The position numbers and the translations under genes are program-made. DNA of 28,192 bases from Methanospirillum sp. (GTDB lineage: Archaea; Halobacteriota; Methanomicrobia; Methanomicrobiales; Methanospirillaceae), in NCBI GenBank assembly GCA_028695895.1, contig JAQVIE010000001.1, positions 1 through 28,192 on the forward strand, written 5' to 3'. Positions 5,088 to 6,637 of this stretch are shown one piece after another. The notes under the pieces were generated by a model. The model made no database searches. It saw only the letters and a program-made list of their open reading frames with translations, and had not been told where the DNA came from. How positions within the stretch are numbered: the stretch's first letter is position 1; the number at the start of each line of letters is the position of its first letter.

Positions 5088-6257
5088 TTACATCCAGATG
5101 ATATCTGGCCCGCTGGCATAATCCATAGCTGCGGTAATGGAGTGGGATTTTATTCGCGCAATGTCGGGGGATTTAGGATAACGAATCTGCTCTTCAATTC
5201 GATCCAGTTTTTCCCTGTAGGGTTGCTTTGGCTTAGCTATGGTGTCGCCATTTTTTACTCCTGTCATAATGGCAAGGACGCGGACTTTTCCTTCCATGTC
5301 AGGTCGAATTCGGGCTCCCCAAATAACATCAGCATGTGGATCAAGCTCATAAGTAAGAGAGGAAGCAATCTCTTCAGATTCAATGAGCGTCAGATCACTT
5401 CCGCCGGTAATATGGATCAATGCCCCTGTGGCACCACGATAATCGATGTCAAGCATTGGATTGGAAAGACATTCTCTTACAACAGATTCTGCTTTATTCT
5501 GTTGTTTTGATTCTCCAACGAGCATGGTTGCCACTCCACCCTTACTCATGATAGCTCTGACATCCGCATAATCAATGTTAATGAGTGAAGGTTCTGTAAT
5601 TGTTTCAGTAATTCCTTTAACTGTCTCTCCAATTAACTGGTCCATGACGGAGAAAGACTGTGCAAGAGGAAGGTTAGGAACAAAACTTTTCAACCTGTTA
5701 TTATCAAGAAGAATTACAGAATCACATGCTTTTGACATGGCTTCAAGACCGTCTTCAGCCCTGATAAGTCTGGCTTTTTCTACGTCAAACGGGTAGGAAA
5801 CCATGCCGACAACAATAGCTCCTTGTTCTTTTGCTATTTGCGCGACAGCTGGTGCAGATCCTGTACCGGTACCCCCTCCCATACCTGCAGTGATAAAACA
5901 GAGATCAACAGAATCAAGAAGGCTTTCCAAGGTTGGGCGAGCCATTTCCGCTGCTTTACGACCAACTTCCGGGTATCCCCCTGCGCCAAGACCTTTTGTC
6001 AGACTTTTACCAATTAGAATCCGTTTATCCGCCTGAATCATGTCCAGGTGTTGTTTATCTGTATTTATGGCAATGGTCTCAGCACCGGAGACGCCCATGT
6101 GATGAAGACGGTTAATGGTATTATTTCCGGCTCCCCCACACCCTATGATGACAATTCTTGGTTGTCCATCCATATCATCATCATAGTTTTGCGACATATT
6201 CTTGAGTTCTTTTTCTCGTTCCGCGTTAATTACTGCGGCATTGATGATACTCTGCAT
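5088..6257 (-). CDS. ftsZ: Cell division protein FtsZ
   Basis: 389 residues from the ATG at 6257. FtsZ is the tubulin-like GTPase that polymerises into the division ring. The sequence shows the glycine-rich N-terminal nucleotide loop (GCGGAGNNT at about 39-47), the tubulin signature GGGTGTG at 127-133, the T7 region [11 protein letters not shown], and a C-terminal domain ending in a short tail. The N-terminus ([13 protein letters not shown]) resembles the FtsZ1 style of other euryarchaea, but I do not assign the paralogue firmly. The frame is open up to 6347, but that extension would overlap the upstream gene; the chosen start has a strong ribosome site (GAGGGGG) 8 nt upstream. It begins 19 bp after the cdrS-like stop, so the two form one operon. 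Confidence 0.96.
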
Positions 6258-6276: not shown

Positions 6277-6447
6277 CTAAAATGACAGTTGATCACTGTC
6301 GGCGAGCACTCTGGTTGCCCGCTTTTCGATGAGCATACGTACAGCATCCCTTATGGCTTCAGAGACGGTGGGAAACTCGCCCGCCTCTACCATCTTCTCC
6401 AGCATCAGTATCTGCTGGTCAGGCAACCGGATGGTGATTCGCTTCAT
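6277..6447 (-). CDS. cdrS: CdrS-like ribbon-helix-helix regulator
   Basis: 56 residues, starting [12 protein letters not shown] and ending DSDQLSF. It has the classic ribbon-helix-helix plan: an N-terminal DNA-contacting strand (KRITIRL, 2-8), helix A with [10 protein letters not shown], the turn PTVSE, and helix B with [12 protein letters not shown]. In euryarchaea a very short protein of this type, CdrS, is encoded beside ftsZ and controls cell-division genes (known for haloarchaea). The order cdrS then ftsZ with a 19-bp gap is that arrangement. A start at 6447 is the only one that gives the full strand-helix-helix. Six repeats with exact 11-bp spacing lie 15-80 bp upstream and are the likely operator. 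The name is by sequence style and position. Confidence 0.85.
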
Positions 6448-6461
6448 ACTTAAGCCTCATG

Positions 6462-6527
6462 ATCTGACAATTGTCTGCCACATGTCTGCCAGTCGTCTGA
6501 CAATAAGGTGACAACAGTCGGACACAA
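6462..6527. promoter_or_regulatory. Six 11-bp-phased operator repeats upstream of cdrS-ftsZ
   Basis: On the plus strand, hexamers CTGACA, CTGCCA, CTGCCA, CTGACA, GTGACA and CGGACA start at 6464, 6475, 6486, 6497, 6508 and 6519, each exactly 11 bp after the last. The fuller unit is GTCTGnCA plus three bases. The array spans the inferred 5' leader of cdrS-ftsZ, from about the start site at 6527 to 15 bp before the ATG. One helical turn per repeat suits cooperative binding of a dimeric regulator along one face of the DNA. Confidence 0.7.
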
Positions 6528-6548
6528 CGAGATACAGAGAATACAATC

Positions 6549-6557
6549 CATAAATAG
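6549..6557 (-). promoter_or_regulatory. TATA box in the cdrS/cobD divergent region
   Basis: CTATTTATG on the minus strand predicts a start near 6527, at the distal edge of the 11-bp repeats. The complement CATAAATAG could also serve the plus-strand cobD-like gene (start near 6580, ATG at 6638), so the element could be shared. Confidence 0.45.
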
Positions 6558-6637
6558 ATAAAGGTTTCGTTTTATTCACAGATGAAAATAGATAGTTGTA
6601 AACAATCTGGTGTTCATGAATAGGAAAGAGCTGCCAG

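Follow-up and report, generated by a model that had tools for sequence, protein, structure and literature searches.

The cdrS-ftsZ operon of a Methanospirillum species is preceded by an array of near-palindromic 9-bp sites phased at exactly 11 bp, which is probably the operator through which the CdrS-like protein would repress its own operon. The array was found in a stretch of 28,192 nucleotides (GCA_028695895.1, contig JAQVIE010000001.1, positions 1 to 28,192), called here the window, which is one contig of a 319-contig assembly with an estimated completeness of 76%. Hexamers starting at 6464, 6475, 6486, 6497, 6508 and 6519 had been listed in the preliminary description of this DNA, and they are found exactly there. 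Within the 66-bp stretch, 36 of 55 positions are identical at a lag of 11. Dinucleotide shuffling of the whole 190-bp intergenic region yields 19.3 on average (sd 2.6), and the value of 36 is never attained in 5,000 such shuffles. When the best of lags 5 to 30 is taken, the observed z is matched by no shuffle, and the top lag-11 score of the whole window falls on this same stretch. The 11-bp-phased array upstream of cdrS-ftsZ is real.

Read on the coding strand, the operator unit is the 9-bp near-palindrome TGTC-W-GACA (TGTCWGACA). Its registers begin at 6524, 6513, 6502, 6491, 6480 and 6469, running downward, and the final 9-mer ends at 6461 (Table 1). The earlier count of six sites stands for the in-phase registers but not for the sites themselves, of which five are good, register 2 being degenerate across the family. 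The array is thus better described as one site, a skipped register and four phased sites. The counterparts of register 2 in the family loci often show recurring letters of their own, such as TTCTC or AGCT.

Table 1. Features of the cdrS-ftsZ region, in window positions. Counts give the family loci in which a register reaches at least 7/9; the BRE, the TATA-like box and the Shine-Dalgarno site are predictions from sequence.
Feature	Positions	Strand	Description
Putative BRE	6565-6569	-	CGAAA
Putative TATA-like box	6555-6563	-	CTTTATCTA
Operator register 1	6516..6524	-	TGTCCGACT; 91/94
Register 2, degenerate	6505..6513	-	TGTCACCTT; in phase, single half kept; 1/94
Operator register 3	6494..6502	-	TGTCAGACG; 92/94
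Operator register 4	6483..6491	-	TGGCAGACA; 81/94
Operator register 5	6472..6480	-	TGGCAGACA; 88/94
Operator register 6	6461..6469	-	TGTCAGATC; 73/94
GAGG, probable Shine-Dalgarno site of cdrS	6455..6458	-	right after register 6
cdrS-like gene	6277..6447	-	56-aa ribbon-helix-helix protein (RHH_1); strand residues R3, T5, R7
ftsZ (FtsZ2-like, 389 aa from ATG at 6257)	5088..6257	-	TIGR00065, E 1.5e-124

The product of the first gene matches the RHH_1 profile (PF01402; CopG/Arc/MetJ) with an E value of 2.3e-8 and 34.1 bits, over a curated cut-off of 20.5, and the RHH domain is the only one that Pfam gives. Its top NCBIfam model is CdrS NF058555 (TransRegCdrSHalo), at 60.1 bits under a cut-off of 100; thus, we name the protein CdrS-like and place it outside that haloarchaeal equivalog. 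A single-sequence model of the monomer (the ribbon forms in the dimer) has a mean pLDDT of 80, with helices at 10-22 and 28-51 and no strand assigned. The gene lies directly upstream of ftsZ2, as expected for cdrS, its stop codon being 19 bp from the ftsZ start. Over the matched part, the FtsZ protein is 58-63% identical to the cdrS-adjacent FtsZ of 21 putative haloarchaeal genomes. In the window, the upstream neighbour of cdrS is not cdrL but an aminotransferase gene that diverges from it. The C-terminal tail of CdrS (6280-6310 in the window) is mostly of the SDQ-SF or SEQ-SF type in the order and often WAKV or similar in putative haloarchaea; it may possibly be a partner-binding peptide.

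From the position of the TATA-like box, transcription would start near 6533, and the array would begin about 9 nt downstream of that start. Such a box turned up in 92 of the 94 family loci scanned, and in 77 of these it precedes the array by 35-39 bp. The letters immediately before the array (6525-6534) are conserved too, as TATCTCGTTG in most of the window's genus and as TCATCTG in many others, and perhaps represent an initiator.

The array is a property of the whole family. Of 108 genomes in the family, 94 have a cdrS match, among them 57 of the 59 high-quality ones, and the best match per genome was examined; these 94 loci span 17 genera and are related, so that the counts are not independent events. 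Every one of them has ftsZ downstream of cdrS, and in every one the start of the best six-register array precedes the ATG by 69-88 bp (median 78). In 85 of the 94 loci the array scores higher than all 1,880 shuffled scores, and in the other nine it does not. In seven loci merely two or three registers reach at least 7/9, and the weakest arrays belong to genera g3, g9 and some of g15. Phasing is conserved as well: when copies of GWCWGWC lying within 60 bp of each other in the 200 bp upstream are compared, 252 of 255 distances are multiples of 11.

A search of the phylum gave a cdrS match in 249 of 392 genomes. We examined 30 of the 48 matching sister-family genomes, as well as 20 other and 20 putative haloarchaeal loci hand-picked among the matches listed. 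In the sister families of the order, 29 of 30 loci exceed all of their own shuffles, and the distance between motifs is a multiple of 11 in 43 of 45 cases; the figures for the other, putative non-haloarchaeal loci are 13 of 20 and 22 of 27. A clear array is absent at several of the phylum loci examined (L206, L207, L212, L216). The search of related Methanomicrobiales that the preliminary description had proposed thus supports its interpretation, and relatives that keep cdrS-ftsZ and lack the repeats, which would have spoken against it, are largely missing within the order. The exception is given by the putative haloarchaea (families f13, f17, f21, f23, f29, f33 and f35, assigned from their CdrS sequences; only genus g106, in f23, is linked to Haloferax, through its PCNA against PDB 3hi8), where another element is found.

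Two lines of evidence argue for the CdrS-like protein as the binder, as had been suggested from the window. The first one is covariation between protein residues and bases. In the E. coli NikR protein, strand residues 3, 5 and 7 touch DNA. NikR (PDB 1q5v) aligns in register with the CdrS profile over residues 1-46. Among 136 distinct CdrS proteins, R7 occurs in all, R3 in 131 and T5 in 131, and the exceptions are in families f9 and f31. For f9, 48 of the 51 matching genomes were examined, leaving out three weak matches, and all 48 loci encode K3/S5/R7. In their promoters (190 bp) the central base of the site is A/T in 5 copies and G/C in 74 (GTCSGAC), 44 loci having S only and 4 having both. 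At 139 R3/T5/R7 loci (those not putatively haloarchaeal, 150 bp), W outnumbers S by 286 to 23, with 118 loci having W only, 18 both and 3 S only; to prevent doubling, the covariation count excludes the four f9 loci already contained in the earlier set. The single f31 locus (K3/A5/R7) has one W copy and one S copy. Most f9 promoters hold one or two strict copies only, many of them just one, and the commonest spacings between strict sites (L404-L451) are 21 (16 cases), 10 (10) and 11 (7), corresponding to one or two turns of the helix. The covariation comes from essentially one deep lineage, f9, and the loci are thus not independent. Despite representing essentially one evolutionary change, it supports a tie between the CdrS protein and the sites in its own promoter.

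The second line is the match to known targets in Haloferax. In H. volcanii, CdrS occupies 18 ChIP-seq sites, including the ftsZ1 and the divergent hisB/HVO_2987 promoters, and the cdrS promoter is not among them (PMC8406309). Our motif scans were run on other Haloferax species, including H. denitrificans, whereas the ChIP table is that of H. volcanii. In the H. denitrificans genome, exact GTCWGAC-N4-GTCWGAC occurs twice. One copy is placed in the gap that separates hisB from a divergent reading frame of 48 codons, which includes a hydrophobic stretch; the other lies 49 bp upstream of the ftsZ1 ATG. Both genes are listed as CdrS targets in the H. volcanii ChIP-seq table. With up to one mismatch the number of places rises to 9 (1 in the reversed control), and the two exact ones are the only clear ChIP targets. 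Another one, with one mismatch, lies about 350 bp before uvrB, and the six remaining places, in or near other genes, could not be matched to the ChIP table. Genes near those six include trkA-like, RNB-domain and dihydropteroate-synthase-like ones (the trkA-like and dihydropteroate-synthase-like genes were named by eye).

The same pair recurs upstream of ftsZ1 beyond Haloferax: 14 of 20 putative haloarchaeal ftsZ1 upstream regions have a GTCWGAC pair scoring at least 12/14, a level reached by 0.2% of shuffles, and among spacings of 8 to 15 bp, 11 alone stands out. A good pair is absent in three of the 20 regions (L249, L253, L256). At dacZ, the half-site GTCAGAC is found at one place in four of four Haloferax genomes, and at a putative psmB (named by eye, from its N-terminus) in three of four. 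The partner halves at both genes are weak, with pair scores of 8-11/14 that are reached by 8 to 297 of 300 shuffles, and eight other Haloferax proteasome promoters have no half-site within 500 bp. Taken together, these matches support, short of proof, GTCWGAC at 11-bp spacing as the recognition unit of CdrS.

In our view, the array likely serves CdrS as an operator for the operon that encodes it and mediates negative autoregulation of cdrS-ftsZ. The tandem sites, about one helical turn apart in the promoter region of cdrS itself, fit the pattern of an RHH autoregulatory operator array. One CdrS dimer would bind each TGTC-W-GACA, its beta-ribbon reading both halves through R3, T5 and R7. Successive dimers, spaced by one helical turn (11 bp), would all occupy the same face of the DNA, and could thus bind side by side. 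Within the transcribed leader, the array would begin at about +9 and reach as far as the Shine-Dalgarno site, so that its occupancy should block promoter clearance or elongation, most likely as a cooperative roadblock. Rising CdrS would then lower the synthesis of both CdrS and FtsZ, with a steep response. It is the location downstream of the predicted start site that makes negative autoregulation the most likely outcome.

CdrS could instead bind the array and activate its own operon. In H. volcanii, 15 of the 18 CdrS sites are followed by a start site 41-110 nt further downstream, and ftsZ1 drops upon cdrS repression (PMC8406309). However, the array lies downstream of the predicted start, which is the position of a repressor, while the ftsZ1 sites lie upstream of the predicted promoter. 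Activation is therefore unlikely in our opinion.

A different DNA-binding protein, for instance a second RHH protein, might also read the array. There is a precedent in Halobacterium salinarum, where the distinct RHH protein CdrL shows reproducible binding at the cdrS-ftsZ2 promoter only (PMC7439475); moreover, a complete genome of the window's genus (G074, 3,544,738 bases) has three further RHH_1 matches over the cut-off. Yet CdrL is reported solely in Halobacteria and as absent outside them, most putative haloarchaeal cdrS promoters carry a different element, and the sites track the CdrS strand residues and match known CdrS targets. We thus regard another binder as quite improbable.

The haloarchaeal promoters deserve attention in this respect. 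No pair of the array motif was found at the 20 putative haloarchaeal cdrS promoters, and a single GTCWGAC was found in three of them. Fourteen of the 20 carry an exact GTAAGAC-N4-GTCTTAC, one more differs from it at one base, and at L225, L236, L242 and L244 the GTAAGAC and GTCTTAC halves are present at other spacings. The H. denitrificans cdrS promoter has the element too (L376:1375-1392). At L225-L244 and L376, it sits close after the predicted start site. The sites of the window array are of the GTCWGAC type and do not include GTAAGAC-N4-GTCTTAC. This element scores 12/14 against the CdrS-type pattern, and binding of CdrS there is thus compatible with the sequence. In putative haloarchaea, GTAAGAC-N4-GTCTTAC stands at nearly the position that the array has here, and CdrL is the natural candidate for binding it. 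The strand of H. denitrificans CdrL reads MSKITFR, with K3 in place of R3. It is tempting to hypothesize that control by CdrL replaced self-control by CdrS in haloarchaea, or the reverse.

Coming back to the window, the array could also be centromere-like, with a CdrS-DNA complex coupling a chromosomal place to FtsZ, as in ParR/parC or TubR/tubC, and autoregulation as a by-product. The layout of a DNA-binding adaptor, repeats and a filament gene is shared with the partition loci ParMRC and TubZRC. In addition, ParR of plasmid R1 requires at least two 11-bp repeats (PMC9426499). Against partition, CdrS of H. volcanii behaves like a regulator of transcription, with 18 dispersed binding sites (PMC8406309), the window protein consists of an RHH domain alone according to Pfam, and the available portions of PMC8406309 and PMC7439475 describe no partition role for CdrS; we find it very improbable.

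A structured RNA element in the mRNA leader has hardly any chance of being the explanation: the array does lie in the presumed leader, its near-palindromic units can pair mutually and the mean folding z-score is -1.9 (27 of 94 family leaders), but the window leader has a z of -0.78, with 29 of 200 shuffles folding equally well, the antisense strand folds comparably, structures vary among genera, complementarity between the central bases of sites is about as frequent as expected, a search of Rfam gave nothing at E values of up to 1, and an RNA fold would not be expected to keep a strict 11-bp period.

We looked for a wider regulon of CdrS in 26 of the family's 108 genomes, by searching for site pairs with up to two mismatches. 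A match was obtained in 24 of them, and the other two (G073 and G090) have none even at their own promoters. From the 20 non-cdrS places inspected, no regulon beyond the cdrS promoter could be established: some are within genes, some are in a repeated element and one is recurrent in three genomes. In L145, L146 and L148, which come from three genomes belonging to two genera, a CdrS-type pair occurs at a comparable position (near 1500-1550), upstream of a gene of about 106 aa without a clear family match and beside a YGR210-like GTPase gene. The repeated element (L155, L156 and L157, from two genomes of the same genus) reads TTCTATATTTC ... TGTCTGACAAA ... TTCTTTATA and contains a near-perfect pair; in L155 it occurs three times, at intervals of about 421 bp. 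A loose pair pattern is uninformative in the genome of the window: each strand has 10 such places, 4 of these 20 belonging to the array itself, compared with 3 and 5 in the reversed control.

How archaea control the amount of division ring is largely open, and the array provides a concrete operator candidate for CdrS across methanogens and their relatives. The proposed letter-level recognition code also fits the known CdrS targets in Haloferax, and haloarchaea are suggested to have rewired the cdrS promoter from CdrS self-control to CdrL control. CdrS was already known, and so were RHH proteins acting on tandem repeats at their own operon. In the open-licence literature we found no published account of the array or the recognition code; so far as that literature was searched, the recognition code is new, and so is the array with its phasing, its skipped register and its distribution.

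Several known systems resemble the one proposed here. NikR of E. coli (PDB 1q5v) shares the alignment with the CdrS profile, but it has a nickel-responsive C-terminal domain and a different operator. The closest relatives are the CdrS proteins of H. volcanii and Halobacterium salinarum, which are likewise small RHH proteins encoded in a cdrS-ftsZ operon (PMC8406309, PMC7439475). The GTCWGAC unit and the 11-bp spacing are shared as well, there upstream of ftsZ1 in putative haloarchaea. They differ in that a single pair stands upstream of another promoter, while here a six-register array occupies the promoter of cdrS itself, downstream of the predicted start; the haloarchaeal cdrS promoter mostly has GTAAGAC-N4-GTCTTAC. 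CdrL is also an RHH protein at the cdrS-ftsZ2 promoter region, but it contains an extra middle region and zinc ribbons and is reported only in Halobacteria (PMC7439475); the element there is GTAAGAC rather than GTCWGAC, with CdrL as its hypothetical binder. Finally, in ParR/parC of plasmid R1 an RHH-type protein likewise binds tandem repeats of 11 bp at the operon that encodes it (PMC9426499), and autoregulation figures in the title of a work cited there. Its partner is actin-like, its function is plasmid partition, and both its sequence and its protein family are other than those of the CdrS array.
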